26,283 nucleotides of DNA from a virus (IMGVR_UViG_3300049215_000790:1-26283); one strand, 5' to 3'; shown: positions 940 to 25,617, counted from the stretch's first letter. Notes: generated by a model not told the origin, from the sequence alone. Translations and numbers: made by a program.

Positions 940-1026
940 GCGCGGCGCCTCCCCTTGCACCGTCGCATTCGTCATAGACCCGTCACGGAGGGAGTCAAGC
1001 GGACTTGGCCGCGAGCGTGCCGGCCC

Positions 1027-7373: not shown

Positions 7374-7408
7374 CACACACCTCGATCTCATTTTTTTTGG
7401 CGATCGTC

Positions 7409-7428
7409 ATACCGGCCACGGCCGGTAT
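7409..7428. repeat. Perfect 9-bp inverted repeat, family A
   Basis: ATACCGGCC-AC-GGCCGGTAT, preceded by TCGTC. It lies in the 118-base gap between DUF2460 and DUF2163, the largest break inside the tail-tip cluster. The same stem and flank occur at 19487-19506. It resembles short palindromes dispersed between genes in alphaproteobacterial chromosomes. No T-run follows on the minus strand that would make it a clear terminator, though an RNA-stabilising role is possible. Confidence 0.75.
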
Positions 7429-7491
7429 CCAGGCTTCGGTCGCAAGAGCGGTCAAAGAGTAGAGAGTTCGTCCCTCCGCCGGGATGCGTGC

Positions 7492-8118
7492 CTAGACAAA
7501 CACCGATTGCAGCTTCACCTGCTTCAGCGCCCAGAGCTGATAGAGAAAATTCTCGAAATCGACGGTGTCGTCAGCGAAGCGGACGCGGAAGTAATAGGTG
7601 AAGTCTGCCGTCACCAATTGCCCGCTCGGCGGCGGGCTGACGAACGTCACCCGTCCCGCCGCTGGGTCGATACCATAGGTCGAGCCGTCCTGTCGCACTC
7701 CGTTGAAGTAGATCGCCGACACCGTATTCGGCGCGGTGATCGGCTCAGCAAAACCGCCCATGGTCCGCACCAGCTGGAACACCGTGGCGCTGCCGTCGCC
7801 GATGCCGAGCGCCTGGGCGGTCGCCCGGTCATCGGTCGGGTCGTCGAACAGAAAGGGCTGGAACGCTCCCTGCTGCTGTAGAAAGAACCCCATCAGCGTG
7901 CGCAGCTCGTCATAACCCATGCCGGGCCCGCCGGCAGCCCGCGTGTCGTTGCCGTCGCGCAGCAGTTCGTAGGTCAGCGTCCACGTCCACACCGGACTTG
8001 GTTGGTCGACCATCCGCAGTTCCCGCCCGGAAATGGCGCGCTGGACGCGGGTCGCGAAACGGGGCGCCTTGCTGACGCTCCAGCCGAGCCCCGGCAGCGC
8101 GGGAAAGATCGCCGTCAT
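7492..8118 (-). CDS. DUF2460 family distal tail protein
   Basis: A 208-aa distal-tail protein of the DUF2460/TIGR02217 type (GTA g12 position), forming the ring that joins tail tube and tip. It opens IFPALPGLGWSVSKAPRFAT and carries WTLTYELLRDG, LRTLMGFFLQQQGAFQPFLF, YFNGVRQDGSTYGIDPAAGR and the C-terminal RFADDTVDFENFLYQLWALK. These are all recognisable family blocks in the right order and the length is typical. The ATG at 8118 follows the tape-measure stop by nine bases. A gap with a palindrome separates it from the DUF2163 gene. Confidence 0.93.
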   Translation of the reverse strand: MTAIFPALPGLGWSVSKAPRFATRVQRAISGRELRMVDQPSPVWTWTLTYELLRDGNDTRAAGGPGMGYDELRTLMGFFLQQQGAFQPFLFDDPTDDRATAQALGIGDGSATVFQLVRTMGGFAEPITAPNTVSAIYFNGVRQDGSTYGIDPAAGRVTFVSPPPSGQLVTADFTYYFRVRFADDTVDFENFLYQLWALKQVKLQSVFV

Positions 8119-9430: not shown

Positions 9431-10105
9431 TTACTCGATGGTGATGAGCGAGAGCGTCTTCGGGTTGCGATTCGGCATATCCGGAACGCCGCTGAACTCG
9501 CTGCGACTGTGCAGGCTGAACATCGCGCCGCAGAACGGCGCCGGCTCGGTGTCGATCGCCTCCTTCGTGTAGCGGAAGATGCCGTATCGCTGGACGGCAA
9601 CCTTCGTGTTTTCGCGCGGTTTGATCACATTCTCGTAGAAACGGTAGAGCGCCATCCGGTCGAGCCCCGGGCAGCGATTGCCGAGCACGACCGAGACCAC
9701 GTCGTAAAGGCGCGTACTGTCGTATTCCGACGCGGTATGCGCCAGCTCCGGGTCGCCCGGCAGATCGAATTCGATCTTCTCGACGCGGTCGTTCGGCGAG
9801 GGCGACGCAAGCGTCAGGGTGATCCCGATCACCTCGGCGTGTCCTGGCAGCCGCGCATCGATGGTGATCTTGCGATGCGCGGTCCGGCCGTTGACATCGA
9901 GCTCATTGCGCTTGGCGATCTGCGCTGCGACGACGCTCATGTCGAACCAGAACGCGGTGCCCAGCGATACCATGCAGACGCGCAGGTCCGTCTTATAGCA
10001 GCCGGCATGGGCTTCCTCCGGCGTGAAGCCAGGGCTCGACGACGCAGCGCTTCCCTGCCCCATCCCGGCCAGGAAAAGCATCACTGCCGCCGCTGCTCCC
10101 CGCAT
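9431..10105 (-). CDS. Secreted protein of unknown function inside the tail module
   Basis: The 224-aa protein begins MRGAAAAVMLFLAGMGQGSA, a clear Sec signal peptide with cleavage near residue 20-22. The mature part has paired cysteines early (HAGCYKTDLRVCM), then two further single ones (NRCPGL and APFCGAM). It contains FWFDMSVVAAQIAKRNELDV and IKPRENTKVAVQRYGIFRYT. I do not recognise the family. The ATG at 10105 has GGGGAGG nearby. It sits between chaperone and tape measure, normally adjacent in siphoviruses, and breaks that pair. Its fairly ordinary amino-acid mix and export signal suggest a moron-type cargo gene acting in the periplasm or on the cell surface, but there is no direct evidence for its role. 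Confidence 0.85.
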   Translation of the reverse strand: MRGAAAAVMLFLAGMGQGSAASSSPGFTPEEAHAGCYKTDLRVCMVSLGTAFWFDMSVVAAQIAKRNELDVNGRTAHRKITIDARLPGHAEVIGITLTLASPSPNDRVEKIEFDLPGDPELAHTASEYDSTRLYDVVSVVLGNRCPGLDRMALYRFYENVIKPRENTKVAVQRYGIFRYTKEAIDTEPAPFCGAMFSLHSRSEFSGVPDMPNRNPKTLSLITIE

Positions 10106-10135
10106 CCGCGCCTCCCCGCGCCGCTCGCGCGAAGG

Positions 10136-10402
10136 CTACAATCGTTTCCCGCTATTCGCCAACCGCGCGTGGTTGCGCGCCCGCAAGGCGTCGATATCGA
10201 ACACCGGTGGCGGCATACCGAGATCGCTCCGGACGGCCACCGCCAGGCCCAGCGGGACCATCGCCGCCAGATCGGCCGGGCTCGGCCGCGTGCGATCCGC
10301 CGGCTTCCAACCGAACGCCCTCGCAATGACCTGCAGCATGAGATGCGCGGGCGGGTTTTCGGCCCAATACGCGAAGATTTCCTCCGCCTCGGCGAGCGTC
10401 AT
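10136..10402 (-). CDS. Tail assembly chaperone, T-type frame
   Basis: The ORF from ATG 10402 encodes 88 aa: MTLAEAEEIFAYWAENPPAH, LMLQVIARAFGWKPADRTRP, then LGMPPPVFDIDALRARNHAR. Coding character continues upstream of this ATG in the same frame as AIYAALATGCAYPYAAIDD, with no usual start codon, right into the end of the 105-aa gene in the -1 frame. This is the layout of the lambda G/GT tail chaperone pair, where a frameshift makes a longer fused protein. So the true product is probably a G-T fusion, made by slipping near the GGGGGAA run at 10486-10492, rather than a separate 88-aa protein. Confidence 0.8.
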   Translation of the reverse strand: MTLAEAEEIFAYWAENPPAHLMLQVIARAFGWKPADRTRPSPADLAAMVPLGLAVAVRSDLGMPPPVFDIDALRARNHARLANSGKRL

Positions 10403-10461
10403 GTCGTCGATAGCGGCGTAGGGATAAGCGCAGCCGGTGGCGAGTGCGGCATAGATCGCCG

Positions 10462-10779
10462 CTAGCCGGTCGCCACCGGCAAGGCTTCCCCCGCCGGCAC
10501 GTCTCCGCCGCGCGACAGCCCGGCGACCGCGAGGATCGCCGCCACGGCGGCCGTCACCTCATCCATCGTCGCCTCCAGCTCGAGCACGCCATCGAGCGTC
10601 AGTTCGGGCATGGCTTGGGACAAGCCGGCCTGGATGACCCGCGCCGCCGCGTCGACCATGGCGCCGCCGCGCTTGCCCGACAGGTCGTCCAACGCATCGA
10701 GCAGCGCCCGCAATTGCCCGAGCCGCAGCGGCTCGACCTGAAACTTTCGCCCGCCTAACGTGACCGTCACTCCGCTCAT
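10462..10779 (-). CDS. Tail assembly chaperone, G-type frame
   Basis: The 105-aa protein lies just after the tail tube gene: MSGVTVTLGGRKFQVEPLRL, then LRALLDALDDLSGKRGG, LTLDGVLELEATMDEVTAAV and a Gly/Ala C-terminus. Short acidic-helical proteins in this position are tail assembly chaperones that coat the tape measure while the tube polymerises. The ATG at 10779 is five bases past the tail tube stop. The -1 frame stays open through the whole 3' part of this gene and continues in the next ORF. Close spacing to the tube gene suggests coupled translation. Confidence 0.82.
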   Translation of the reverse strand: MSGVTVTLGGRKFQVEPLRLGQLRALLDALDDLSGKRGGAMVDAAARVIQAGLSQAMPELTLDGVLELEATMDEVTAAVAAILAVAGLSRGGDVPAGEALPVATG

Positions 10780-10783
10780 CGCC

Positions 10784-11548
10784 CTACTCCAGGGTGCTGA
10801 GCGTGCCGATCGTCCCGCTGCCGTCGGCGAAGGCGCTGAAGTCGAATTGCTGGATCTCGTAGTCGTCCGTCTTCGTCGGCAGTGACAGCTTCGTCGCGGT
10901 GCAGGCATTGAGCACCAGCGCCAGTCCCGCCGGCACGCCCAGTGTGGATTTCTGCGTGTAGAAGGTCGCCTTGAAGGTCGGCGTGAAGCCCATCAGCTGG
11001 TTGTTGATGACCAGCTTCTTGCCGCCGCTCGGGGCGTAGAGATACGAGATCAGCACCGCCGCGCTCGCATCCGCCGCCGCAAATGTATAAACCCCCGTCG
11101 CGGCATTGACCGAATACTGCCCGGCCGCGGACGGGGTGGTCACGCGGGTGAAGCGCTGCCCGGCATTGGCGCCGGTCGCGTAGAAGACGCCGAGATCGTC
11201 GGAAAAATTGGACGCATTGGCCGCGGTCACCGTATAGGGCGTCGTCGCCGGCACGTTGCCGGCCTCGTTTTCCGACACGGTCAACTGGCCGCTCGCCGCT
11301 GTTTGGCCGAAGAACAGATCGCCGTAGATCGCCCCGAAGATGCGCGCGAACTTGGCCTTGCCGGTGATCTTGCCTTGGCCGCGCGCGATGTCGACCGGGA
11401 ATTGGAACTGGCCCCAGAGTTCCTTGGTCTGCCAGTCCCAATCGATCTGCACGTCCTGCAGGATGCCGAACTGGTCGGGACCGATGCCCGATCCGGTGAC
11501 GTCCGTGCGGTTGCCCCACAGCGCCCCGGCGCCGAAAGCGAGTTGCAT
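10784..11548 (-). CDS. Major tail tube protein
   Basis: A 254-aa tail tube protein. It opens MQLAFGAGALWGNRTDVTGS and has GILQDVQIDWDWQTKELWGQ, IARGQGKITGKAKFARIFGA and GFTPTFKATFYTQKSTLGVP. It ends DDYEIQQFDFSAFADGSGTI. The 'fused at start to a gpV-like tube fold, aromatic W-D-W segment, and KLS-[TL]PTKTDDYEI' pattern matches tube proteins in alphaproteobacterial prophages. A region around residues 90-170 (PYTVTAANASNFSDDLGVFY, TGVYTFAAADASAAVLISY) looks like an extra domain on the tube surface. The ATG at 11548 has AGGAGG nine bases upstream. The chaperone pair follows directly, as expected. Confidence 0.88.
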   Translation of the reverse strand: MQLAFGAGALWGNRTDVTGSGIGPDQFGILQDVQIDWDWQTKELWGQFQFPVDIARGQGKITGKAKFARIFGAIYGDLFFGQTAASGQLTVSENEAGNVPATTPYTVTAANASNFSDDLGVFYATGANAGQRFTRVTTPSAAGQYSVNAATGVYTFAAADASAAVLISYLYAPSGGKKLVINNQLMGFTPTFKATFYTQKSTLGVPAGLALVLNACTATKLSLPTKTDDYEIQQFDFSAFADGSGTIGTLSTLE

Positions 11549-11549
11549 G

Positions 11550-11768
11550 TCAGTTGTCCTCCTTGAGGCTGGCCCCTTGGGCATCGGCGAGGCGCCGCTT
11601 CAGCTCTTCCTTGGCGGCGAAGGCGTGGTTCCAGGCCGCCGTCATCACAGCGACTGGCGACCCCGGGAAATGGTCGGCCCACCAGCGCTCGACCAGAGCC
11701 TCGTAAGCCGCCGATGACGGCACGACGGCGACCGGTTTCCGCGCCTTGGACGCGGCAGTGTCGTTCAT
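11550..11768 (-). CDS. Small conserved-type protein, unknown function
   Basis: A 72-aa, mostly helical protein: MNDTAASKARKPVAVVPSSA, then YEALVERWWADHFPGSPVAV and AFAAKEELKRRLADAQGA. The ATG at 11768 has AGGAGA nearby, and the stop is one base before the tail tube start, which is strong evidence that it is real. The central WWADHFPGSPVA and helical tail recall small proteins next to tail tube genes of other prophages, but I cannot name a family. Possible roles are minor tail or assembly factors. No TM segment or signal peptide is visible. Confidence 0.8.
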   Translation of the reverse strand: MNDTAASKARKPVAVVPSSAAYEALVERWWADHFPGSPVAVMTAAWNHAFAAKEELKRRLADAQGASLKEDN

Positions 11769-11793
11769 GCTGGTTCTCCTGGTCTTTGGCCGG

Positions 11794-12894
11794 TCAGCGT
11801 GCGATCTGCTGCAGCAGCGCGTTCGGCAGCCGGCGGTTCGGCCAGATCGCCAGGCGCGCGATCGTCCCATTCCACTGATGCGTGCCGGTGCCATTGGCGC
11901 CGACGACAACGCGGGACGGTACGAACATCGTGTTCCCCGCCGTGGTCGCGAGCGTGCCGCCGCTGGCGACGGCCTCGTCGTTCACCGTCACGGCATAGGC
12001 GATCGCGAGCCAGCCGCCGGTAGGCCATACGACGCTCTGGGCCGGGGCCGGCTGCGCCGAGCCTCCCACAAACATCCCGAGCCCAATGATGCCGTTGTTG
12101 CTGTTGCGGTCGATGTCGATCCGCTGGTTGTTGTCGCCCTGGTCGATCTGCAACGGCGTCTGCGTCGTGCCGTAATTGATCGCCATCGCCGGTACGCCGC
12201 CGATGAACGCCGACAAGCTGGAGCCGAAATTCGGCTGCCGCGCGATCGTCACAAAGTCTCCGTTGCGCGTTGCCGGCGCTCCCCCGGTGACGATCAGCGG
12301 CGTCCCGCCATTGCCGTTCTCAAGCTGAAATGCGTTGAGCAAGCCGGAGACGGTCACCGTCACCGTGCCTCCCCCGGACAGCACGAAGATGTTGGGGGCC
12401 CCCTGCGTCGCGGCCCCGAACCCGGTGCCCGTGGCCGTGCCCGCCGAACTGGTCGCCGACCCGGAACCGTTGACCCATAGCGTGTAGGTTCCGGCACCGA
12501 GGCTTGCCGTCGTCTGCGTCGCCGGCGCCGTGCTGTTGAGCAGGTAATTGGTTCGTGCCTCGAAAATCTGCAGGCCGGCGCCCGGCACCACAGCCGCCAC
12601 GCCGGCGGCAAAGGTCACATAGGCCGTGCCGCTTGCCGATGTCGGCAGCAGCGAGGTTTCGGGAGCGGCGCGATTGACGGTCAGGCACGTCGCCGCGCTG
12701 CGACACCCGGTCCGGGCCTGCCAGTAGCGGCCGTTGAGGAAATCGAGGTCGAGCGCGGCGCCAGGCAGCACCCAGCCGGGAACGCCCGTCTGCTCGCGCT
12801 CCCGCACGCGGTCCGCTTCAGCCGCGCCGACCGCCAACCCGGCCAGCGCCAGCCCGGTCAACACGGCGACGCCCCGGCAGAGAATCCCGCGCAC
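11794..12894 (-). CDS. LamG/concanavalin-like surface protein with signal peptide
   Basis: A 366-aa protein beginning at GTG 12894, three bases after the previous stop. Residues 1-27 look like a signal peptide (GVAVLTGLALAGLAVGAAEA). The next block has GAALDLDFLNGRYWQ and LQIFEARTNYLLNSTAPATQ, a familiar arrangement in phage head/tail decoration proteins. The C-terminal part (FVPSRVVVGANGTGTHQWNG, TIARLAIWPNRRLPNALLQQ) matches a laminin-G/concanavalin lectin fold that often binds sugars. It is placed between tail terminator and tail tube, so it may be virion-associated. The signal peptide is odd for such a protein and could instead mean surface export from the lysogen. The start codon is the weakest point. 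Confidence 0.78.
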   Translation of the reverse strand: MRGILCRGVAVLTGLALAGLAVGAAEADRVREREQTGVPGWVLPGAALDLDFLNGRYWQARTGCRSAATCLTVNRAAPETSLLPTSASGTAYVTFAAGVAAVVPGAGLQIFEARTNYLLNSTAPATQTTASLGAGTYTLWVNGSGSATSSAGTATGTGFGAATQGAPNIFVLSGGGTVTVTVSGLLNAFQLENGNGGTPLIVTGGAPATRNGDFVTIARQPNFGSSLSAFIGGVPAMAINYGTTQTPLQIDQGDNNQRIDIDRNSNNGIIGLGMFVGGSAQPAPAQSVVWPTGGWLAIAYAVTVNDEAVASGGTLATTAGNTMFVPSRVVVGANGTGTHQWNGTIARLAIWPNRRLPNALLQQIAR

Positions 12895-12897
12895 GGC

Positions 12898-13641
12898 CTA
12901 ATTGTCCCGGTCCGTGGATACGAGCAGCGTCTCGACCTCGCCCGAAATCGGCGTGTAGCCGCCCGCGCCGATCGCCACCAGCGCATAAAGATAGGTTTGT
13001 CCGGCCAGCGCCTTGAACGGCAACGCGCCGATCACCGCATTGTTGGTCGAACACGGCGAAAACCATTTGGCGGTGCCGTCGTTGGTCTTCTGCCACGACG
13101 CGCAGGTCAGCGTCCCGAGATACGAGCCTCCGGTCAGGTCGGCGAGATACGGCCCGACATAGGCCGAACCGTCGACAAGACCGGAGACCGTCACCGCCGC
13201 ATTCGAGAACAGATGCCAATACTGCGTCGGTGGTGTCGATGCGCCCGTGTAGCTCGACGCCGCGAACGCGGCGACGATCTTGCCGGACCCTGCGGCGGTG
13301 CCGGTGACCGAGATTTGGCTCGGCGTTACACTGCCTGCGGTGTTGTTGGCGATCAGCTGGCTCCCGGTATAGGCCGTCGTGTTCGCCGGGCGGGTCACCG
13401 AACCGCCGCCATTGATGCTCGCGAGCGCATTGATCGACACGGTGCCGCTGACCGGCAACGGCAGGCTCGCACTCGGCGGCGCGGTGCCGCCGCTGCCGTT
13501 GGGGATGACCAGTTCCGCCGGCGGCGCCAGCGCACCGGGAGATGCCGCTTGATAGGGTCCCTGGCTGTTATCCGCACGGGCCGGGACGCAAAGCGCCAGC
13601 AGCAGCGCCGACGCCAAGCAGCGAATGGGTCTGCGAATCAT
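12898..13641 (-). CDS. Phage structural-type protein with signal peptide
   Basis: A 247-aa protein opening MIRRPIRCLASALLLALCVP followed by ARADNSQG, a clear signal peptide cleaved near residue 23. A Pro/Ala-rich linker follows, then VTRPANTTAYTGSQLIANNT, the common start of a beta-sandwich module in phage structural proteins. The remainder has PTQYWHLFSNAAVTVSGLVD, GSYLGTLTCASWQKTNDGTA and a fibronectin-like YLYALVAIGAGGYTPISGEV. The ATG at 13641 has GGGGA eight bases upstream. It is paired tightly with the following LamG-like gene. Known relatives generally lack a signal peptide, so its export suggests a surface or periplasmic job rather than ordinary capsid assembly. This last point is inference. 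Confidence 0.8.
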   Translation of the reverse strand: MIRRPIRCLASALLLALCVPARADNSQGPYQAASPGALAPPAELVIPNGSGGTAPPSASLPLPVSGTVSINALASINGGGSVTRPANTTAYTGSQLIANNTAGSVTPSQISVTGTAAGSGKIVAAFAASSYTGASTPPTQYWHLFSNAAVTVSGLVDGSAYVGPYLADLTGGSYLGTLTCASWQKTNDGTAKWFSPCSTNNAVIGALPFKALAGQTYLYALVAIGAGGYTPISGEVETLLVSTDRDN

Positions 13642-13683
13642 TCGATATTCCCCAAAAGATATGAGGGCACGTTCGCCTCTGCG

Positions 13684-14121
13684 TCAGCCGACGCAGAGTA
13701 TCTCGACGGGCACGATGGCCACGGCCTGGTCGCCCAGCACGCCTTCGTCGGTCTCGATCTTTCCGCTGATGTAGGCGTGCTGGACGGTCGCCGGCAGCCC
13801 AAGATCCTGAAGCCCGGTCGCCGCCGAGCCGGCGAGTGCCGCCTCAACAGCGTCGAGCAGCGGGTTCAACAGCGTCGCCGGCGCGACATACGGATCGCTC
13901 GAATGGACATAGAGGAAGAGGTCCACCGACAGCGCCCATAGCGTTGGCGCACCGAGCGTCTTGATCGTCGCCAGTTCGCTCTTTTGCGCCATGAACAGCG
14001 TCGGCTGCTCGGCCGGCGCCACATCGCTCCAATGCCGCAACCGCCGGTCCACCAACGCGAAGTCGGCCGCGGCGCCCAGCAGTTCGAACAGCGCCGCGTA
14101 GATCGGCTCGCGTGCTATCAT
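13684..14121 (-). CDS. Tail terminator protein
   Basis: The 145-aa protein starts MIAREPIYAALFELLGAAAD and has VDRRLRHWSDVAPAEQPTLF, LWALSVDLFLYVHSSDPYV and ISGKIETDEGVLGDQAVAIV. This is the usual pattern of a tail terminator/completion protein. It would cap the tail tube and join the head. The ATG at 14121 overlaps the gp10-like stop as ATGA, so the longer upstream extension in this frame is only a shadow. Its place, directly after the gp10-like neck gene, is typical. The normal partner, the tail tube gene, is displaced about 2 kb downstream by three inserted genes. Confidence 0.88.
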   Translation of the reverse strand: MIAREPIYAALFELLGAAADFALVDRRLRHWSDVAPAEQPTLFMAQKSELATIKTLGAPTLWALSVDLFLYVHSSDPYVAPATLLNPLLDAVEAALAGSAATGLQDLGLPATVQHAYISGKIETDEGVLGDQAVAIVPVEILCVG

Positions 14122-14594
14122 GACTGCAGCGCCTCGGCCGCCGCCGCCTCGATCGCGGCTCGAATTTCCGGCAGTGTCTCGTTGAGCGCCGAACGCATGA
14201 ACGATCGCTCGGGCATCGTCGTCGCCGGTAGCTGCACGCGCTTGAAGAAGCGCTGCTGGCCGCGCCAAGGAAAAGCCAGCACCCGCGCGGCCTGCGGCAG
14301 GACGGTCCGCGCCGGAAGTATGCCGCCATATTCGTGGATCGCGGCATAGGGCGAGCCGCTGCCCACCGTGACGCTGGCCCCGAGGCCGACGCGCTCCGCC
14401 GTCACCGTGATGCTGCCGGCGAGCCGCCCGGTCCGCCGCCGCAGCACCTCGCCCGACAGCTTGCGGTCGATCCGCGCACGCAGCACGCCGCCGAGCCGCT
14501 CGATCTCCTGCGCCAGCCGCTCTGCCAGCGTCTGCGGCAACGCGCCGACGCGGGTGCTGAGCGCGCCGAGCCCATCCACCGATACAGTGATCAT
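14118..14594 (-). CDS. HK97 gp10-like neck protein
   Basis: A 158-aa head-tail joining protein: MITVSVDGLGALSTRVGALP, a helical segment with RLAQEIERLGGVLRARID, then LRRRTGRLAGSITVTAERVG, SGSPYAAIHEYGG and MRSALNETLPEIRAAIEAAA. The 'RTGRLAGSI ... YAAIHEYGG ... FMRSALNE' triplet is diagnostic for the HK97 gp10 / virion morphogenesis family. The start overlaps the gp6-like stop as ATGA. Both neighbours are neck components, which makes the assignment firm. Confidence 0.93.
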   Translation of the reverse strand: MITVSVDGLGALSTRVGALPQTLAERLAQEIERLGGVLRARIDRKLSGEVLRRRTGRLAGSITVTAERVGLGASVTVGSGSPYAAIHEYGGILPARTVLPQAARVLAFPWRGQQRFFKRVQLPATTMPERSFMRSALNETLPEIRAAIEAAAAEALQS

Positions 14595-15241
14595 AGCGCG
14601 CCCGCGAGCATGGCCGGATCGGTCGCGGTCGGGGCCAGCCGCCGGGCAAAGCCCGACACCGGCGTCACCGCACGGTACGGCGCGAGCAGCGTCTTCACGC
14701 CGTCGCTCATGTCCTTTTGCGAAAACGTTACCGTCTCGCCGCTCATCAGCGCCTTCGACACCTCGCCAATCCGCGTCCGCTCGCGATAGCGTTGCGCCAC
14801 CAGCTCGATGCAGGCCTGCGCGATATCCGGCGGCGCGCTCGAATAGCCGGCGGTGTAGGTCACCACGACGTTCTGCGCCCGGCGGGTGAGCACATAACCG
14901 CGCAACGCCAGCTCGGTCGGTGTGAACACATAACCGGCGGCAAAGCCGCCCCCCGCGCCCACAGCGTCAGCGGCGGGCGGGATGGCAAGCCCGTCGATCG
15001 ACAGCGACAGCACCGCAGTAACCGGCGTATTGGCAAAGACCAGCCGCTGGCCGCCGGTGCCATCCCGTATCTCGATCCAGTCGGCCGACAGGATCGGCCG
15101 GTCCAGCCAGCTCTCGATGAACCGGCTCGCCGCCCCGATCAGCCGCAACAGCAGCGCGTCGTCAGTGGCCGGAAACGGGTTCTGCCCGGTCTGCAGCCAC
15201 GCCGTGACATCGGCCAGGCTGCACAGATCGCCGATCGCCAT
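14591..15241 (-). CDS. gp6-like head-tail connector
   Basis: A 216-aa connector of the HK97 gp6 type: MAIGDLCSLADVTAWLQTGQ, LLLRLIGAASRFIESWLDRP, QNVVVTYTAGYSSAPPDIAQ, ACIELVAQRYRERTRIGEVS and DMSDGVKTLLAPYRAV. A dodecameric ring below the portal is the known role. The central insertion IDGLAIPPAADAVGAGGG FAAGYVF is common in relatives with a beta-hairpin. It lies six bases after the capsid gene and overlaps the neck gene, consistent with one transcript. Confidence 0.93.
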   Translation of the reverse strand: MAIGDLCSLADVTAWLQTGQNPFPATDDALLLRLIGAASRFIESWLDRPILSADWIEIRDGTGGQRLVFANTPVTAVLSLSIDGLAIPPAADAVGAGGGFAAGYVFTPTELALRGYVLTRRAQNVVVTYTAGYSSAPPDIAQACIELVAQRYRERTRIGEVSKALMSGETVTFSQKDMSDGVKTLLAPYRAVTPVSGFARRLAPTATDPAMLAGAL

Positions 15242-15247
15242 AGCGGA

Positions 15248-16741
15248 TCAGCCGTTGCCGATATTGGTGATGACGCCCATCGCGAACGGTGCGTATACCG
15301 CCAGCACCTCTTCGGCGTAGACGCCGACCTGGCGCTGCCGCGTCACCACCGGCCAATCGATCTGGTAGTAGTCCTGCCGGGTCTTCACCTCGGCGACGTT
15401 CGGCACCTCGTTGGACTGGTACTGCACCGGCAGGTTTTCCGCCCAGCCGATGATCGTCCCCGGCGGCACTTTGGGGTGAATGCGAATGGGAATGCGCAGC
15501 CCGCCGTTCAGCGCGAAGGGGTTGAAGTAGTATGACACCGCCCCGGCCGCCGCCAGATCGTAGGCATTGCCGTCGCCGCTCACCTCGTAGCGCAGCAGCG
15601 GGGCCGAGGCGTTCGACAACACCTTGGCGGTGATGTTTTTCAATTCCTGGACGTTGACGTAGAGCACGGTCGGCGACAGCTGATAATTGTTCCACATCGT
15701 CTGGAACATCGTGTCGATCTCGACCACCGAACCGCGCCCCGAGGCGGTCAGCGGCGTGCCGGTGCCGGCGGTGCCGGTCGCCTGCGTCGCGACATAGGCG
15801 TTCGACCCGTTTTTCAGCGCCGTCGTCAGCAGCCCGTCATAGGCATAGCTCGGATTGGCCGAATTGTCGGCGGTGATCGCCGATTGCGCCTGTCCGGTGC
15901 CGGCGAGCGGCGCCGAGAACGCGGCGCTGTTGATCGTGGTGATCGCCTCGAGCTTTTCGCCGCCCGTGGCGGTGCCGACATACCAGGCGTAAGCGACGGC
16001 GCCCGGCACCGGCGCGATGCTGGCGAACAGCGTCTGGCCGAGGGTCACCGGCTGGCCGGAGCTTTCGGCGCTGATATTCGACGAGCCGCCGCTGAGGTCG
16101 TAGGTCTTGCCGTCGGCGCCGGTGATGTGCTTCGTCGTGGCGATGCCGCCGGCAAGGCTCGAATTCTGGTAGCCTTCGAGGGTCAGCGCCACGACCTTGA
16201 CGTAATAGGTCGCGGCCGGGAGGGTCGCGCCGGTGCCCGAGGCCGACAATGCCGGCGTGCCCGGCACGCCCAGCTGCAGCGAGGCATTGCCGGCGAGGAT
16301 CGCCATCTCCTCCTTCAGCATCATCTTCTGCAGCAGACGGAAGGTCATCCGCGCCTGGATGTCCTCGAAGTTGCGCCCGGCGTTGATCGCTTCGTAGGTC
16401 GCCGCGTCCTCTTCGCCGATCGTCACAAAGCCCGCCGACTTCGACGCGGTGGTATACGACATCTGGGCCGAGCGCTGCCCTTCCGGAACCCAGCCCATCG
16501 CGTCAAAACCCGAGCCGACAAGTTGCGTCACCTGGCGCCAGTTGGTCGCCGTGCCGGTGCCGCCGCCGACGCGTGGGATGACGTTCCGCAGCGGCGTCAC
16601 GAACGGGTACAGGTTTTTGGCCGGCGCCTGCAAATCGAACGCCACCAGACCGGTGCCGGTCGAGATCGTCTTGGCGAGCTGGTCGCTGGGCGAGCGCAGC
16701 GCGCCCTTGACCAGATCGAGCGTGTCTTGTGTCGGGTTCAT
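15248..16741 (-). CDS. Major capsid protein with inserted Ig/FN3-like domain
   Basis: A 497-aa HK97-fold-like capsid protein. The core is recognisable on both sides: APAKNLYPFVTPLRNVIPRV and LQKMMLKEEMAILAGNAS before residue 155; TMFQTMWNNYQLSPTVLYVN, YYFNPFALNGGLRIPIRIHP and VKTRQDYYQIDWPVVTRQRQ after 330. Between about 160 and 285 lies LPAATYYVKVVALTLEGYQN and GAVAYAWYVGTATGGEKLEA, the cadence of a fibronectin/Ig-like module. Removing it gives a core of about 370 residues. Such modules on capsids can bind cell surfaces or mucus. The start is certain: ATG at 16741 with GGAGGGA nine bases upstream. A terminator hairpin lies between this gene and the protease. Confidence 0.93.
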   Translation of the reverse strand: MNPTQDTLDLVKGALRSPSDQLAKTISTGTGLVAFDLQAPAKNLYPFVTPLRNVIPRVGGGTGTATNWRQVTQLVGSGFDAMGWVPEGQRSAQMSYTTASKSAGFVTIGEEDAATYEAINAGRNFEDIQARMTFRLLQKMMLKEEMAILAGNASLQLGVPGTPALSASGTGATLPAATYYVKVVALTLEGYQNSSLAGGIATTKHITGADGKTYDLSGGSSNISAESSGQPVTLGQTLFASIAPVPGAVAYAWYVGTATGGEKLEAITTINSAAFSAPLAGTGQAQSAITADNSANPSYAYDGLLTTALKNGSNAYVATQATGTAGTGTPLTASGRGSVVEIDTMFQTMWNNYQLSPTVLYVNVQELKNITAKVLSNASAPLLRYEVSGDGNAYDLAAAGAVSYYFNPFALNGGLRIPIRIHPKVPPGTIIGWAENLPVQYQSNEVPNVAEVKTRQDYYQIDWPVVTRQRQVGVYAEEVLAVYAPFAMGVITNIGNG

Positions 16742-16768
16742 GCGTTTATTTCCCTCCGCTCGGGCAAC

Positions 16769-16790
16769 AAAAAACCCGCCGAACGGCGGG
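16769..16790 (-). terminator. Intrinsic terminator between protease and capsid genes
   Basis: On the minus strand the stem CCCGCC-GTTC-GGCGGG (16775-16790) is followed by TTTTTT (16769-16774). This is a textbook rho-independent shape. It lies 26 bases after the protease stop and 27 bases before the capsid ATG. The capsid SD is untouched beyond it. It may set the ratio of upstream to downstream transcripts, or force a separate start for the capsid transcript. Confidence 0.8.
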
Positions 16791-16816
16791 CTGGGTTCGA
16801 GTCGCAGGCCTTTTGA

Positions 16817-17965
16817 TCAGCGCATGCCGAAAGGCCGGATCGGGTTGGCGTGTGCGGCCTTGATCAACGTCAGGGTACGTTCCTCGTCGCTCATCCGGGC
16901 AAGCGCAACGACGACGTCTTCGGTTGAGGCCTCGGGATGGCCGCCGTCCTCGCTTTTCGAGATGCCCGCGGCGCGAGCCATCGTCCGAGGCGGCAACGGT
17001 GTCGCCTGCAAAACTGCGACGGACTTTTCTAGCTCTTCGAGGCGCGGCAGGATCGCGGCTGCAAACGCCTTCGCCAGATCGTCGGCACGCACCGCCTTGT
17101 CGCTTTCCTCGGGCACGGCCTCGGCCTCATTGGCAAATCCATCGCAATGGGCACCAGCGCGGCACAGTGCGTCGTGCGCGTCCTTCAGATGACCGAGCCA
17201 AGTCTTCGAATGCCGCCCCATCGCCGTCGTTGCCCAACAGCAATCGCCGCCGGTCAGCATCCGCAAGCGCTCATGCACATGGTCGAGGGTCGCCCGCTCG
17301 TCCGACATCGAGGATTTGACCCCCGGCGGCCCCGCCGGATCGATCTTCTCTTTCCACGCCGTGACGATGCGCGCTTTGATCTTGGCGGCCTCCTCGGCCG
17401 TGTACCGCGCGGCATTGCCGGGCATGTGGATATAGGCCCAAGCAGCGCGGATGTGCCGTTCCCCATCGAGCGGGTAGCGCTTCTGCCCATCCGCCTGGTA
17501 ACCGGGATCGGCGTAACCGGTGTCATCGGCCATCGCCTCGCCGCCCTCCGCCTTCCAGCAATCGAACACCGCTTCCGGATTGGCCGGCCGGTCGACCAGG
17601 CTGATCTCGGTCAGCGCCAGCGCGGTGATGACGTGCCGGTCGCGCGCATCCCGCCCCCGCACTTTGCCGCCGACCGAAAACCCCTTGTAGACACCGCTCT
17701 TCACCTTCTCCCAGGCGCGCGGATCGACGATGCGGGCGCCGACATAAAGCCCCTTGTCGTCGACCCCCGCCTCCTCGGCAACGCCGACCGCCGACATCTG
17801 GTGCATCTCGCGGATATTGGCGAATTTCAGATAATCGCCGAGCGCCTCGGCCAGGGCGTCGCGGGTGATGATTTCGCCCTGGTCGTCCTCGGCATCGGTC
17901 GAGGCATAGCCCCAGACCATCCGCTCCTCGGCATCGACCTTGGCGATCGGAGCATAAAAGCGCAT
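16817..17965 (-). CDS. XkdF-type prohead serine protease with DUF6582-like domain
   Basis: A 382-aa phage protease upstream of the capsid gene. The N-terminal domain has VWGYASTDAEDDQGEIITRD, FANIREMHQMSAVG, VDPRAWEKVKSGVYKGFSVG and LALTEISLVDRPANPEAVF. The GxYxGFSVGG and ISLVDRPANP motifs are the family signature, and the MHQ/GFS residues are candidate catalytic ones. From about 155 there is a second domain: KRYPLDGERHIRAAWAYIHM, AEEAAKIKARIVTAWKEKID, like DUF6582. A coiled C-terminal stretch follows (DDLAKAFAAAILPRLEELEK), suited to a scaffold role. ATG 17965 with GGTGA upstream is preferred; GTG 17974 is possible. No separate scaffold gene is seen. Confidence 0.9.
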   Translation of the reverse strand: MRFYAPIAKVDAEERMVWGYASTDAEDDQGEIITRDALAEALGDYLKFANIREMHQMSAVGVAEEAGVDDKGLYVGARIVDPRAWEKVKSGVYKGFSVGGKVRGRDARDRHVITALALTEISLVDRPANPEAVFDCWKAEGGEAMADDTGYADPGYQADGQKRYPLDGERHIRAAWAYIHMPGNAARYTAEEAAKIKARIVTAWKEKIDPAGPPGVKSSMSDERATLDHVHERLRMLTGGDCCWATTAMGRHSKTWLGHLKDAHDALCRAGAHCDGFANEAEAVPEESDKAVRADDLAKAFAAAILPRLEELEKSVAVLQATPLPPRTMARAAGISKSEDGGHPEASTEDVVVALARMSDEERTLTLIKAAHANPIRPFGMR

Positions 17966-18001
17966 GCGGCTCACCGTGTGGTTGAAAGACTTACGATCGG
18001 G

Positions 18002-18172
18002 CTATCCACCTGACCTCTTTCGGGTCCGGCTCGGCACCCTGGCAAATTCGTGCGTGAGCGGCTTGATACCGCCGATCCATCTGGAGAAGGCGTCGTAAAT
18101 CTCAGGCGGAAGCGGCGCCACGCAGTCGATCTTCGTGCGCGGCGCCTTGCACGCCGTACACCGTCGGCGCAT
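18002..18172 (-). CDS. Possible small ORF between portal and protease
   Basis: A 56-aa ORF overlapping the portal 3' end and filling the gap before the protease. After a Cys-bearing start (RCTACKAPRTKIDC) it reads APLPPEIYDAFSRWIGGIKP, then LTHEFARVPSRTRKRSGG. The composition there (Tyr, Phe, Trp, Ile, acidic residues) looks coding. The start ATG at 18172 has only a weak GGTGG, and the whole first half is shared with the portal frame. Function unknown. It could be a chance ORF. Confidence 0.4.
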   Translation of the reverse strand: MRRRCTACKAPRTKIDCVAPLPPEIYDAFSRWIGGIKPLTHEFARVPSRTRKRSGG

Positions 18173-19454
18173 CGCCACCCGGTACCGGGTCGAGCCCCAG
18201 CAGCGCGCGCGCCTCGTTGACCGCATACACGCCGTTGCGGACATACGTGTCGATGATCTTCGCCTGCTCCATGGGGTCGGCGGGCCGCAAATCCGCCCAG
18301 GCGAATTCGAGGTCGGTGTGCCCCATCACATCCTGGATCGCCTGGTCGGCCAGCCGCTTGACCCAGCCCATCAGCGGCGCCAGGCCTTCGTCCTGCGCGG
18401 CTTCTTGCGCAGTCTCGGCGGTGGCCCGGTTGACCTGCCGGCTGAACGCCGTCGCCGGCAGCGAAAACGCAAAACACACGATGCGCGCCAGCCACTCGTC
18501 GAAATCGTCCTTGTAGGGCGCCTCCTTGAAGGCTTGGTACTTGGCCCCCGCCGGCCCCCACAACAGCCGCGAGCGCGAGCCGGTATTGCCGGCCAGCACG
18601 CTGTCGAACCATTCCTGGAACTGGCTGATCTGCTCGACATTCCAGCCGTCCGGGGCGTTAAGCAGCCCCGGTGGGACGTTGCCCTCGGTGAAGTGCTGCA
18701 GCTGCATCAGTTGGCGGCGCAGCGCGATGTTCACTGTCATCACGATCTGCTCGACCGGCCCAAAGCCGTAGGCCTTATGCGGCCGCGGGTTGCGCGGCAG
18801 ATAGAGCAGTTCGTCCGTGGTCAAGAGCTTCCACGGCCGCCCCTTGATAACCTGCTCGTAGGCAGGCGCCGGCGGCCTCGGCCGCCGTCCGGTTTCGTCG
18901 ACCAGCACCTTGATCGTCGCGCCGTCGACGACGTCGAGCCCGATCAGCGCGCCGCCGCGATTGCGCCGCAACTCCAATGCCGGCGCATCGATCACCAGCA
19001 CGTCTTCGAGCAACTCGCGCAGCCAGGTCGCAAACGGCCGCTCGCCATCCGGCCGCCGCCAGAAATCGGCAACAGCCGCGCTCCGCGCCCGCGCATCGAG
19101 GCGCGCCGCCTGGCCGCCGCGCACGCGGATCGACCAGTCGAGCCGCTCGATCTGGTCCTTGCGCGTCTCGATCGCTAGCCGGGTGATGTCGTGTGAGTCG
19201 GCGAGCCGCCGCAGCTCCTCGAACGATACCGTCTCGTAGGATCGCGGCGTATAGACCGTATTGACGCCGACCGGGTAGTCCCACACCCGCACCCGTTCGC
19301 GGTCGAGCGGCGTCAGCGGATAGCCGGGCGAGAACACTCCCTGTCCGGGCTGGTAGACGTCACGGAACCGCGTCTCCAACCCCTGCTGCCCCCAAGTGAA
19401 AGAGGCCGTGAGGCTGGCCTTCGCGCCGCCAAGTCGAGTATCGATCTCGGGCAT
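18102..19454 (-). CDS. Portal protein
   Basis: A 450-aa portal protein. Key stretches are VSFEELRRLADSHDITRLAI, LDWSIRVRGGQAARLDARAR, WLRELLEDVLVIDAPALELR, KGRPWKLLTTDELLYLPRNP, VEQIVMTVNIALRRQLMQLQ, GNVPPGLLNAP and FDEWLARIVCFAFSLPATAF. The last of these is close to the portal signature around SRQVNRATAETAQEAA. The portal is the DNA channel and joins head and tail. The ATG at 19454 follows a gap with two palindromes separating it from the tailspike gene. The length is standard for phages of this capsid type. Terminase, the normal neighbour, lies 3.3 kb upstream because two genes are inserted. Confidence 0.95.
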   Translation of the reverse strand: MPEIDTRLGGAKASLTASFTWGQQGLETRFRDVYQPGQGVFSPGYPLTPLDRERVRVWDYPVGVNTVYTPRSYETVSFEELRRLADSHDITRLAIETRKDQIERLDWSIRVRGGQAARLDARARSAAVADFWRRPDGERPFATWLRELLEDVLVIDAPALELRRNRGGALIGLDVVDGATIKVLVDETGRRPRPPAPAYEQVIKGRPWKLLTTDELLYLPRNPRPHKAYGFGPVEQIVMTVNIALRRQLMQLQHFTEGNVPPGLLNAPDGWNVEQISQFQEWFDSVLAGNTGSRSRLLWGPAGAKYQAFKEAPYKDDFDEWLARIVCFAFSLPATAFSRQVNRATAETAQEAAQDEGLAPLMGWVKRLADQAIQDVMGHTDLEFAWADLRPADPMEQAKIIDTYVRNGVYAVNEARALLGLDPVPGGDAPTVYGVQGAAHEDRLRGAASA

Positions 19455-19486
19455 TTCTTGTTCAGTCCTGATATCAACACCTCGTC

Positions 19487-19540
19487 ATACCGGCCCAGGC
19501 CGGTATCCATGGTAGGACTGGCCCCCGGCCTTCGCCGGGG
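19487..19540. repeat. Two adjacent palindromes in the tailspike-portal gap
   Basis: ATACCGGCC-CA-GGCCGGTAT (19487-19506) has the same stem and flank as 7409-7428. It is followed by CCCCGGC-CTTC-GCCGGGG (19523-19540). Together they resemble bipartite dispersed repeats of alphaproteobacteria. They fill much of the 153-base gap, which holds no gene. No long T-run follows the hairpins on the minus strand. Confidence 0.7.
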
Positions 19541-19607
19541 TGACGCGGAGAGTTGTTTATGGGTTTCACGCTCGGCCGTGCCGCGCCGGTGATGGCGGCA
19601 CCGTTAG

Positions 19608-22238
19608 CTAAAAGCTGCTCCACGCCGCCCGCTTCCAATTGTTGGGCGCGGTGCAGAAGTAGAGATAGTTGCTGTCCGCCTCGATCTGGCCGGTCTGGCA
19701 GGCGGCGCTCGACGAGGACGGTGTCCCGGTCGCCGGGAACATCCCGTTTGCCGAGGCGCTCGCCGGCGTCAGCGACGCCACGCGAAAATTCGAGCCGTCG
19801 AACTCCAGCCGCAAGAACTCGTAGTTCTGCCCGTACAGCGTCAGCGCCGATTGTGCGCCACGCGTGCCCGGCATCAGAATACTGCCGCCGCTGGTGCCGT
19901 TGGCCTGCACCGTCAGCGCCTTGCCGTTGTCGCTGGTGAACCCCATCGACCAGCCGGCTGCGATTGCCGTCGTTGACGGCAGCGTCACCGTGAGGCTGCC
20001 GATCGGCGAATTGTACGACGAGACCACCAGCCCGCAATCCGCCAGCGTCGCGCTATAGCTGCTGACGGCGGGGAAGCTCGCCTTCGCCACGCATCCGGCG
20101 CCGCTCACTCCAAGCGAGGCCGCCGAAGCGGGCGTCACCTGGACTACGCGAAAATTCGACCCGTCAAACTGCAGCAGCGCCTGCTCGTAGTTGCCGGCTG
20201 CCAGCTGCAACGACGTCACCGTGGCGCCGCTCCCCGGGTAGAGGATCCGCGCACTGTCGCCCGCGGCGATCTGCGCGGCGGCGGTCTTGCCGTTGTCGTT
20301 GGCGATCGCCGCCGTCCATCCCGCATTGAGCGCGCTCGCTGGCGGCAGCGTCACAGTGAGAAAGCCGAGCGGGCTGTTATAGGCCGAGACCGCGTTCCCG
20401 TTATCCGCGACAACGGCGGTGTAAGCGCTCACCGCCGGAAAGCTCCAGCGCGACACCCCGCCGCCGCTGCCGGCGATGCCCAGTTGCTGCGCCGTCGCCG
20501 GCGTCACCTGCTCGACGCGGAAATCGCCGCTGCCGTCGTATTGCAGCGTCACGTACTCGTATTGGTATCCCGCGAGGGTCAGCGTGCTCTGCGCGGCGGC
20601 GTTGATCAGCGGGTAGAGGATGTGCCCGCCGCTGGTGTCGTTGACCCGCACCTGTAGCGATTTGCCCTGGTCGGTCGCAAACCCCATCGACCACCCCGAC
20701 GGCAGCTCGCTCGTCGGCGGCAGCGTCACCGTGAGACCCGCGCTGGTGTTGTAGCTCGACACCACGTTGCCGTTGTCGCCAAGCTGGGCCGCGTAGCCCG
20801 CGCTCGACGGGTACAGCCAGTTGCCTGGCCAGTCCCGGCTTTGCAGCCCGTTTGTCGCCAGCGTGTTGCGCGTCCCGGCGGTGACCCGGAAGTTGTTCCC
20901 GTCCGATTGCAGCTCCAGGTACTCGAAATTCCCCGGCCCCAGCGTCACCGCCGTCAGCGCCTTGCCGCCCGACAGGATCGTGCCGGACGGCGCCGTCACG
21001 GTCATGCCTTTGCCGTTGTCCGTGGCAAACCCCATCCGCCACCCGGCATTGACCGCCCCCGGGGCCGGCAAGGTCACCGCCAGCGACACGCCCGGTGCGT
21101 TGTAGGACGAGAGCGCCGAGCCGTCGTCGACCCCGCCCGCCGTGTAGTTCGCAACGGCGGGAAACTGCCAGGCCGCCCAGCTGCCCCCGCCCACCACCTG
21201 GACCCCGACCGATTGCGGCCCGCGATTGGTCACCAGCCCGGCATACGTCGGATTGATGAGCAGGTTGCGGTTGCTCGCCGTCGCGCTGACCGCGGTGGCG
21301 CAGTTGAAATAGGGTGAGACGAAGGTATTCTGCCCGTCATGGTTGAAGGTGATCGCCAGGCAGGTGGGCGCCACCTCGAAATCGAAGCCGAACACCGTGT
21401 TGGCGAAGTTGAACCCATTTTCCAGCAGCATTGCCGCGCCGCCCGTGCCTGCCGCCGAGCCGGCGCCGGAAATCCGAGAGAATTGGGTTTGTTCGAGGGC
21501 GATCCCGGCCGCGCCGCCAGCGCTGTCGGCCACCGCATAGATATCGCTGTTGAGCACGTAATTGAGCTGCAGCCCGCCGGCCCCGGCCGCGGTGCTCGCG
21601 TTGTTCACCACCAGATGGTCGAGCTTGATCGCGTTCTGCGCGTCGGAGAAGTCGCTCTTGCCGATCACCACCGCATAGCCCGGCGTATTCGCACGGACGA
21701 ACAGCGCGCCCTCTTCCTTGAAATAGAAGCACCCGGTCGGGCTTGCCGTCGTGCCGCCCGAGCATTCGACCCGCAGCACCGGGCCCGACGCGATGCTCGT
21801 CCCATCGATCGCCGCGCCCTCGGAGATCACCCTGAACCCGTTCCCCGCTTGCCCCGCATAGTCGATCACAAGCCCGCTCGTCACCTTGTAGACGCCGGCG
21901 GAAAAATGCACCGGCCAGCCATGAGCGACCGCCGCGTCGATCGTCGCTTGGATCGCGGCCGTATCGTCGTGGCTGCCGTCGCCGGCGGCACCGTTACACT
22001 TCACGTCGATCCACGGTTGCCCCGAGCACATCAGCACCGCACCGCCGAGCGTTGCCGTGCCGCTGGTCGACAGCGTCGAGAAATTTCCCGGCGATTGCGC
22101 CAGCGCCGCCGCCGCCATCATCCCGCCTGCCGCAAACACCGCCAGCGCAAGCGCCCGCTCGATCAGGGTCTGCCGGTGCGTCCTTCGAGGCTTCGCTGCG
22201 CGATGCACCTCAGAATGAGGACGATTGGAGGATGCCAC
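19608..22238 (-). CDS. Beta-helix tailspike/pectate-lyase-like protein with fourfold repeat
   Basis: A large surface protein, about 876 aa from GTG 22238 (GAGAGAGG seven bases upstream) or 902 aa from ATG 22316. Residues 26-48 look like a signal peptide (ERALALAVFAAGGMMAAAAL AQ). The next region (WIDVKCNGAAGDGSHDDTAA IQATIDAA, then VHFSAGVYKVTSGLVIDY) is the start of a pectate-lyase-3-like beta-helix. About four copies of a 115-125-aa module follow, each with FPAVxxYxAxxxDxGxxxSSYN, LTVTLP, GWxMGFxxDxGK and an FRVxxxTPA turn. The C-terminus ends SNYLYFCTAPNNWKRAAWSS. Likely a receptor-binding or depolymerase protein. Its position between terL and portal is unusual. The start is uncertain. Confidence 0.88.
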   Translation of the reverse strand: MASSNRPHSEVHRAAKPRRTHRQTLIERALALAVFAAGGMMAAAALAQSPGNFSTLSTSGTATLGGAVLMCSGQPWIDVKCNGAAGDGSHDDTAAIQATIDAAVAHGWPVHFSAGVYKVTSGLVIDYAGQAGNGFRVISEGAAIDGTSIASGPVLRVECSGGTTASPTGCFYFKEEGALFVRANTPGYAVVIGKSDFSDAQNAIKLDHLVVNNASTAAGAGGLQLNYVLNSDIYAVADSAGGAAGIALEQTQFSRISGAGSAAGTGGAAMLLENGFNFANTVFGFDFEVAPTCLAITFNHDGQNTFVSPYFNCATAVSATASNRNLLINPTYAGLVTNRGPQSVGVQVVGGGSWAAWQFPAVANYTAGGVDDGSALSSYNAPGVSLAVTLPAPGAVNAGWRMGFATDNGKGMTVTAPSGTILSGGKALTAVTLGPGNFEYLELQSDGNNFRVTAGTRNTLATNGLQSRDWPGNWLYPSSAGYAAQLGDNGNVVSSYNTSAGLTVTLPPTSELPSGWSMGFATDQGKSLQVRVNDTSGGHILYPLINAAAQSTLTLAGYQYEYVTLQYDGSGDFRVEQVTPATAQQLGIAGSGGGVSRWSFPAVSAYTAVVADNGNAVSAYNSPLGFLTVTLPPASALNAGWTAAIANDNGKTAAAQIAAGDSARILYPGSGATVTSLQLAAGNYEQALLQFDGSNFRVVQVTPASAASLGVSGAGCVAKASFPAVSSYSATLADCGLVVSSYNSPIGSLTVTLPSTTAIAAGWSMGFTSDNGKALTVQANGTSGGSILMPGTRGAQSALTLYGQNYEFLRLEFDGSNFRVASLTPASASANGMFPATGTPSSSSAACQTGQIEADSNYLYFCTAPNNWKRAAWSSF

Positions 22239-22290
22239 GCAAAAACCTCTCTCATGCTGAGCAGCGCCGCCAGGCGCGTCCGGAACGACA
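22179..22290. repeat. Inverted dispersed-repeat element at the tailspike 5' end
   Basis: GTCCTTCGAGG (22179-22189) and CCTCAGAATGAGGAC (22208-22222) flank a hairpin core. A second, partly inverted and degenerate part follows (CTCTCATGCTGAGCAGCGC to GCGTCCGGAACGAC, up to 22290). The 'TCCTTCGAGG...CCTCAG-ATGAGG' form matches, from memory, a repeat that is abundant in Rhizobiales-type genomes. It lies exactly over the first codons of the tailspike ORF and supplies its putative SD. Confidence 0.7.
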
Positions 22291-22324
22291 CACCCTGCCC
22301 TTGCAGCATTACCCATCACGGCCG

Positions 22325-22765
22325 TCACCACCGCCGCGCCGCGAAGACCTGGCCGGTCGTCGCACCATAGAGGCTCACCGCCCCAGCCGGCTTGTAGCCG
22401 GATGGCGTTGCGAATAGCCCGCCATTGGCCGTCAGTTGAATGCTTGCTCCGCCGTCCGAGGCGATCCCGGTGTCGCAAATCCACAGCGCGGCCGAGGAAT
22501 TGTTCTGCACCAAAAACCCGTTCACCGGAACTATGCCGCCGAAAAGGGTCTGCGCGCTGCCGCCCGTCGCGACCGCGCCGCTGCCATCGCTCGCGGCGCT
22601 GCCGGCGGTGTTGATCACCGGCAGCGGGTTGCCCGGCCCGACCGGGCTTGCGACGCCCGCAACCACAGAGGCCGCCGCGTGGAGCGGCACGAGATTGCCG
22701 CTGCCGTCCGGCTCGGTGGCCAGCGACTGGACGGTAGTATTCGCGTCTTTGACGAGCAGCGTCAT
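22325..22765 (-). CDS. Small structural-type protein after terL
   Basis: A 146-aa protein: MTLLVKDANTTVQSLATEPD, VPLHAAASVVAGVASPVGPG, TLFGGIVPVNGFLVQNNSSA, LWICDTGIASDGGASIQLTA and YKPAGAVSLYGATTGQVFAA. I have seen closely similar unnamed proteins near phage terminase and tail genes. The 'GFLVQNNSSAALWIC...IQL...GGLFxTPxGYKPAG' core suggests a beta-sandwich decoration or fibre-base protein. The start overlaps the TerL stop as ATGA. The tailspike gene starts 9 or 87 bases after its stop, so it may be the adaptor that holds the spike. This last idea is inference. Confidence 0.85.
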   Translation of the reverse strand: MTLLVKDANTTVQSLATEPDGSGNLVPLHAAASVVAGVASPVGPGNPLPVINTAGSAASDGSGAVATGGSAQTLFGGIVPVNGFLVQNNSSAALWICDTGIASDGGASIQLTANGGLFATPSGYKPAGAVSLYGATTGQVFAARRW

Positions 22766-24659: not shown

Positions 24660-24670
24660 GCAATTTATCG
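24657..24670. promoter_or_regulatory. Operator-like motif at the end of the DUF6456 gene
   Basis: ATAGCAATTTATCG. Its halves recur at the repressor: ATAGCAAT at 25603-25610, and TTATCGCAAT at 25561-25570. It overlaps the stop of the DUF6456-like gene and the putative -10 of the terminase promoter. Likely a repressor site, by motif sharing only. Confidence 0.5.
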
Positions 24671-25201
24671 GAAATGAGTTTCGAGCGCGCCCAGCGTGGC
24701 AATCAAAATGCCGGCGGCGGTCTCCTGGCTGACCCGGCGGCCGGCCCACCCCTGCTCCAACGCCCATTCCTTGAGCGAGCGCTCCCAGCCGACGACGTGC
24801 CACAGGCACGATCCTGCGGGCGAGGCGATGCCGCCGACCGCCTGAACCGCGCGCCAAACAGCGGTGCGCGCGGCTTCGACCCGCAGGCCCGGCGCATGGT
24901 CGTTGCGCCGCGACGGCTTGTCGCCGATGTTCAGCCGCGCGATATCGAGCGCCCGCAGTGGATCGAGCTGCGCCAGGGCGAAGCGCCGGCGAAACTCTTC
25001 GCCCGCCTGCCGCATCCCGGCGGTGATCGATCCCCGCCGTTCCATCAGCGTCAGCGTGTCGACCGCGCGGTACGGCCGCGCCGGCCGCCCGTCTGCATCG
25101 GCGATGATCGCCGGGACGAGTTCGATGGGCCCGTGCTGCAGTCGCTCCGGACTGATGACACTCTCCCGCGCAAAGGACCGCGATGGCCGCTGGCGGGTCA
25201 T
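24665..25201 (-). CDS. DUF6456-like early protein
   Basis: The 178-aa protein begins MTRQRPSRSFARESVISPER. It has YRAVDTLTLMERRGSITAGM, RQAGEEFRRRFALAQLDPLR, ARTAVWRAVQAVGGIASPAG, SCLWHVVGWERSLKEWALEQ and GWAGRRVSQETAAGILIATL. This matches, by recollection, DUF6456-type proteins common in alphaproteobacterial genomes and prophages. The final half may be a helix-turn-helix-like DNA-binding part. The ATG at 25201 is chosen because it overlaps the previous stop as ATGA. Upstream residues from 25237 are low quality. Expected role is early phage or host-gene regulation, unproven. Confidence 0.85.
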   Translation of the reverse strand: MTRQRPSRSFARESVISPERLQHGPIELVPAIIADADGRPARPYRAVDTLTLMERRGSITAGMRQAGEEFRRRFALAQLDPLRALDIARLNIGDKPSRRNDHAPGLRVEAARTAVWRAVQAVGGIASPAGSCLWHVVGWERSLKEWALEQGWAGRRVSQETAAGILIATLGALETHFR

Positions 25202-25554: not shown

Positions 25555-25583
25555 TTGCCATTATCGCAATGCCGATATATCAT
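25555..25583 (+). promoter_or_regulatory. Repressor promoter
   Basis: TTGCCA (25555-25560), 17 bases, TATCAT (25578-25583), reading into the repressor gene 35 bases ahead. Both boxes are five of six. The spacer contains TTATCGCAATGCCGATA, an operator-like palindrome with ATCG...CGAT arms, so the repressor may control itself. Confidence 0.6.
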
Positions 25584-25601: not shown

Positions 25602-25605
25602 TATA

Positions 25606-25615: not shown

Positions 25616-25617
25616 AA

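Follow-up and report, generated by a model that had tools for sequence, protein, structure and literature searches.

We analysed a virus-like gene cluster of a kind that is common in soil Alphaproteobacteria, contained in a 26,283-bp IMG/VR record (the window, by which we mean this whole stretch of DNA). Its minus strand carries TerS, TerL, g146, the spike, portal, protease, major capsid protein, connector and neck proteins, and continues with SP247, SP366, g72, the tube, a chaperone with a −1 frame extension, SP224 and the tape measure. RcGTA-like tail-tip proteins, lysis genes and a host-like FabD follow, while an S24-type repressor occupies the plus strand. The genes for the spike, SP247, SP366 and SP224 all lie on the minus strand and encode proteins with predicted signal peptides:

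9431..10105, minus strand: SP224 precursor, 224 aa, four invariant Cys (homologues, alignment, structure model)
10043..10105, minus strand: predicted signal peptide of SP224 (Sec scorer; lipoprotein-type in some homologues)
11794..12894, minus strand: SP366 precursor, 366 aa (signal-peptide score 7.8; C-terminal part resembles a phage tail protein family)
12814..12894, minus strand: predicted signal peptide of SP366 (Sec scorer)
12898..13641, minus strand: SP247 precursor, 247 aa, 2 Cys in the mature part (signal-peptide score 9.7, homologues)
13573..13641, minus strand: predicted signal peptide of SP247, MIRRPIRCLASALLLALCVPARA (Sec scorer)
19608..22238, minus strand: spike precursor, 876 aa (PF12708 2e-9, PHROG tail proteins, signal-peptide score 7.8–8.8)
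22098..22238, minus strand: predicted signal peptide of the spike (homologues: varied signal sequence, fixed mature start)
22325..22765, minus strand: g146, small conserved protein with no signal peptide, adjoining the spike

The spike gene is placed between TerL/g146 and the portal gene, SP366 and SP247 lie between a DUF3168-like tail terminator and the tube, and SP224 separates the tail-assembly chaperone frames from the tape measure; gaps of 3–86 nt lie between the four genes and their neighbours. The chaperone (10136–10779) has an apparent −1 frameshift extension into the g88 frame, judged by reading the sequence, and a terminator-like hairpin (16773–16792; 8 pairs, then a T run) lies between the protease and capsid genes. 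Relatives comprise at least 587 IMG/VR contigs and 49 located genome loci; gene calls were home-made and the contigs of relatives are fragmentary. Capsids of the closest cultured phages share ~41% identity or less with that of the window, and tblastn searches with the spike, SP247, SP366 and SP224 returned zero matches in 50,697 phage records, among which no characterised phage shows the four genes.

The spike combines a pectate-lyase-like region near its N-terminus with repeats and a fibre-tip-like C-terminus, and matches the pectate-lyase-type tailspike domain PF12708 at 38 bits against a cut-off of 27. Its exact start codon is uncertain (GTG at 22238 or GTG at 22208). A repeat-like stretch at 22175–22220 overlaps the spike start, apparently providing both the start codon and the n-region of the signal; a search of other loci by one pattern did not recover it. 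No other obvious spike is present in the window. The neighbouring g146, for which the Sec scorer detected no signal peptide among 15 homologues, is a possible partner of the spike, and its C-terminal alignment to a small exported protein of relatives is suggestive at most (probability 2.8%).

SP366 matches phrog_5939 (553–759/801, 4e-10) and is weakly similar to the head-spike-fibre protein of a related locus, L133 (E 0.005), and the NCBIfam GTA_spike_fiber model (NF048003) left it unmatched at E up to 0.1. SP247 belongs to no known family, and its structure model is unusable (pLDDT 31). For SP224, neither Pfam nor PHROG yielded a family and the PDB held no credible match in sequence; its structure model is confident but corresponds to no known fold (Foldseek and VIA-align rows weak, best Z 3.4). 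When 385 genomes drawn from the class of genome G010 were searched with an SP224 profile, the sole match was G010's own element.

Predicted export signals and paired cysteines

The original prediction proposed that signal peptides begin all four late-operon proteins and that these interrupt the core gene order at three places. The three places are confirmed by the layout above, and the signal peptides by a home-made Sec/signal peptidase I scorer that combines n-region charge, h-region hydropathy and the −3/−1 residues. By this scorer each of the four proteins has a predicted N-terminal signal peptide and signal peptidase I site, with scores of 9.7 for SP247, 7.8–8.8 for the spike, 7.8 for SP366 and 6.3 for SP224, compared with 6.1–8.7 for 12 E. 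coli signal peptides used as positive controls. The sole other window protein scoring 6 or more is the lipoprotein-like g117 of the lysis region.

Signals persist in homologues down to ~30% identity, being retained in 15 of 17 for the spike and 16 of 18 for SP224, in all three homologues of SP366, and in SP247 clearly in two homologues and near threshold (5.3–5.7) in two more. The SP224 signal ends in a lipoprotein-type AAC box in L014 (11855), L015 (7173) and L074 (7873). With its predicted signal, shared by most homologues, the window spike does not conform to a cytoplasmic tailspike without a signal peptide. Cleavage of the spike is probable after ALA, ahead of QSPGNFSTL: identity among homologues averages 33% over the 25 residues before this cut and 73% over the first 100 after it. 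Because the signal property is kept while its sequence varies and the mature start is fixed, the spike appears to carry a real signal peptide.

The cysteine pattern points in the same direction. The mature spike has 10 Cys in 15 of 17 sequences and one extra in the remaining two, arranged in close homologues as five near pairs at fixed places, and SP224 has exactly four in every complete homologue, invariant in the alignment. Across 30 exported-protein families of the clade the modal Cys number is even in 27, odd in 2 and none in 1 (p ~8e-7), a count that forms no part of the signal score, yet the families tested were chosen by that score. Core head-tail proteins have mixed Cys counts, often odd or zero. 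Since periplasmic disulfide bonding would select for even numbers, they offer independent support for export.

We considered whether alanine-rich proteins had given spurious signal predictions, or whether the hydrophobic N-termini are anchors that stay uncleaved, a concern raised by the high-GC genome with its alanine-rich N-termini, the home-made predictor and the two SP247 homologues that fall short of clear scores. However, just one of ~1000 core head-tail proteins of related loci reaches 6.3. Of 707 antisense ORFs, 1.1% do so when the first start alone is scored and 2.4% when any of the first four may count. The signal property moreover persists without sequence conservation, conservation of the mature protein begins at the cut site, and cysteine counts are even. 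We regard this reading as very improbable, with chance prediction in alanine-rich proteins ruled out by the core-gene, antisense and cysteine controls. Export of the spike, SP247, SP366 and SP224 is well supported in silico, and further so by the retention of signals in diverged homologues and the even cysteine numbers.

Distribution across loci and exported proteins of relatives

It had also been suggested that the four genes form a coordinated set, and a synteny comparison refutes this. Counting loci in which both flanking genes were seen, the spike is present in 18 of 18, SP224 in 18 of 41 and SP247/SP366 in 2 of 60, with three further cases of the last pair partial or separately found (five known). 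As these junction counts differ, the four genes are not one set travelling together: SP247 and SP366 travel as a pair, and the spike, SP247–SP366 and SP224 are three independent units.

Exported proteins of relatives also occur at the portal/protease and TerL/portal junctions and at the tail-fibre place after gp15. The portal/protease junction holds a 136-aa exported protein together with a fibre or spike of 300–950 aa, and in L061, L082 and L083 it holds 4–5 exported-protein genes, including an exported GDSL esterase-like protein (L082 3910–4641) and an exported, weakly alpha/beta-hydrolase-like protein (L061 3855–4973). Exported fibre-, spike- and esterase-like proteins fill many junctions of the clade and are nearly absent outside it, the trait marking a clade with capsid identity of ~76% or more and nearly vanishing below 67%. 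In L004 (5380–8118) a second partial portal 3' copy lies behind the portal gene (7404–7781, 7750–8118), and there the portal/protease cassettes look as if they bring a duplicated gene end.

Several of these exported proteins match only C-terminal parts of virion fibre or spike families, with the signal replacing the N-terminal part. A 411-aa protein of L135 matches phrog_4492 (785–1094/1096, 2e-33), and a 481-aa protein of L133 matches GTA_spike_fiber (7e-13) and phrog_5939 (372–743/801), with a sub-threshold LamG match; a 723-aa protein of L025 matches PF12708, as the window spike does. As a control, 190 genomes from G010's class were searched; 10 of them contained GTA_spike_fiber matches, 14 in all and none with a convincing signal, and among 14 other spike-like loci a signal was found in two (L178 and L187). 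Exported spikes are therefore not unique to the clade, but are the rule there.

Possible roles of the exported proteins

The usual assumption is that the cytoplasm is where tailed phages fold their spikes and fibres and fit them to particles. Given the export signals and paired cysteines, the spike- and fibre-like proteins described here are probably secreted and not incorporated into particles within the cell. The explanation we favour, to which we give slightly less than an even chance, is that they are Sec-exported, disulfide-stabilised proteins that bind or degrade polysaccharide, are made late, are released at lysis and act mostly in soluble form. All four proteins would be expressed late, together with the head-tail genes, and exported by the host Sec pathway. 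Their signal peptides would direct the spike, SP247–SP366 and SP224 into the periplasm; there signal peptidase would cleave them and the paired cysteines would be oxidised. Once lysis genes opened the cell, the spike and fibre-like proteins would be set free to bind or cleave polysaccharide of the surface or matrix around the producer and nearby cells, mostly in soluble form. SP224 would be a separate small periplasmic protein, or a lipoprotein in some relatives.

The predicted signals and their retention, the cysteine pairing, the spike and fibre homology and the clade-wide spread support this explanation in silico. Its remaining elements go further: periplasmic oxidation, release at lysis and a polysaccharide target are what we infer from this pattern. 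Late expression is suggested by operon position, the short gaps and the lack of a promoter sign; a consensus scan found no promoter or terminator belonging to the exported-protein genes, and Alphaproteobacterial promoters may differ from consensus. Two points favour soluble over particle-bound action: export separates the proteins from particles under assembly, and N-terminal parts are absent. Counting against solubility, a spike that is universal in the clade, in a window with no second candidate, fits a virion receptor-binding protein.

That last point belongs to the main rival, which we think less likely than soluble release and according to which some virion parts are Sec-processed: the spike, perhaps with SP247–SP366, would be exported, acquire periplasmic disulfides and dock on particles during or after lysis through its mature N-terminus, possibly on g146. 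The constant position of the spike beside g146, its strongly conserved mature N-terminus and the homology to spike and fibre families are consistent with docking, as is the finding that nine N-terminal residues fix the RcGTA head fibre to its base (PMC7296036). Docking is made less likely by the same separation of the exported spike from assembling particles, by the several exported proteins without the N-terminal parts of known families, and by the dispensability of SP247–SP366 and SP224. Less likely still, and in our view improbable, is that these are lysogenic-conversion genes whose products, made in the lysogen, alter its surface or block other phages. SP247–SP366 and the portal/protease genes do appear and disappear like morons, and lambda Lom shows that a protein with a signal peptide can be encoded amid virion genes (PMC12309495), but the tight operon spacing, the lack of a promoter sign and a universal spike homologous to virion spikes argue otherwise. 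The lysogen-surface effectors of the original prediction thus find weak support at best, although the export it assumed for them is well supported in silico.

Soluble action, which we prefer, has a close parallel in the RcGTA tailspike TspA, a phage-like tailspike thought to act off-particle on biofilm matrix, whose authors suggest that surplus soluble enzyme escapes at lysis (PMC13420450). TspA itself sits loosely on the baseplate, and its description nowhere uses the terms signal peptide, signal sequence or periplasm (PMC13420450), whereas the spikes studied here carry predicted Sec signals and cysteine pairs. The domain of the RcGTA head spike fibre (Rcc01080/GTA_spike_fiber, NF048003), a spike that binds capsule (PMC7296036, PMC10218006), is present in the exported L133 protein; in contrast, the 14 family matches in genomes of G010's class lack a convincing signal and SP366 gives no match to the model. 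Pectate-lyase-type tailspikes (phrog_2234, phrog_7458 and others) share with the window spike the N-terminal portion of a beta-helix fold and repeats or tip regions, but the window spike has a predicted Sec signal in front and conserved Cys pairs. Lambda Lom, likewise encoded amid virion genes with a signal peptide, differs as an outer-membrane beta-barrel expressed in lysogeny, whereas the proteins here are fibre- or spike-like with no promoter sign of their own.

We found no report of Sec-exported tailed-phage spikes in the open-licence literature, and phages are not known to encode soluble lysis-released depolymerases, according to a 2026 preprint (PMC13420450). If our reading is true, a whole clade with Sec signals and disulfide-type cysteines on its spikes and fibres would be a clear exception, implying either soluble lysis-released depolymerases or particles assembled with periplasm-matured parts, and it could yield disulfide-stabilised polysaccharide-active enzymes from soil bacteria.

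Nature of the element

No tyrosine or serine recombinase was found in eight related virus records or in the element's contigs G009:C60 and G010:C142, although fragments may hide one; this agrees with the integrase-free cluster expected of a gene transfer agent (GTA). The window's tail-tip genes are RcGTA-like, with DUF2460, BR0599 and Rcc01698_C above cut-off, NlpC/P60 slightly below it and Phage-tail_3 also present. The gene next to and upstream of TerS (24665–25237) matches DUF6456 at 27.7 bits against a cut-off of 26.3. Homologues of GafA, the activator of RcGTA, carry this annotation (PMC9638019), which points to a GafA-type regulator. The element could be either a gene transfer agent or a defective prophage. 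We tentatively propose, while thinking it less than probable, that an abundant, integrase-less and possibly GTA-like soil lineage has repurposed its receptor-binding proteins as a secretome that depends on Sec. Disulfide-bonded spikes, fibres and an esterase would then be exported for use beyond the cell, either as soluble depolymerases of the matrix or, once matured in the periplasm, as parts docking on particles at lysis.

The edges of the element (window 1–975 and 25555–26283; L133, L134, L140 and L144–L146) have a repressor on one side and lysis or lipoprotein genes on the other. Directly outside lie host-type genes that differ between loci, namely fabD (window, G002), the rpsF-rpsR-rplI region and cysN (G010) and clpB (G005), all except fabD named by reading the sequences.
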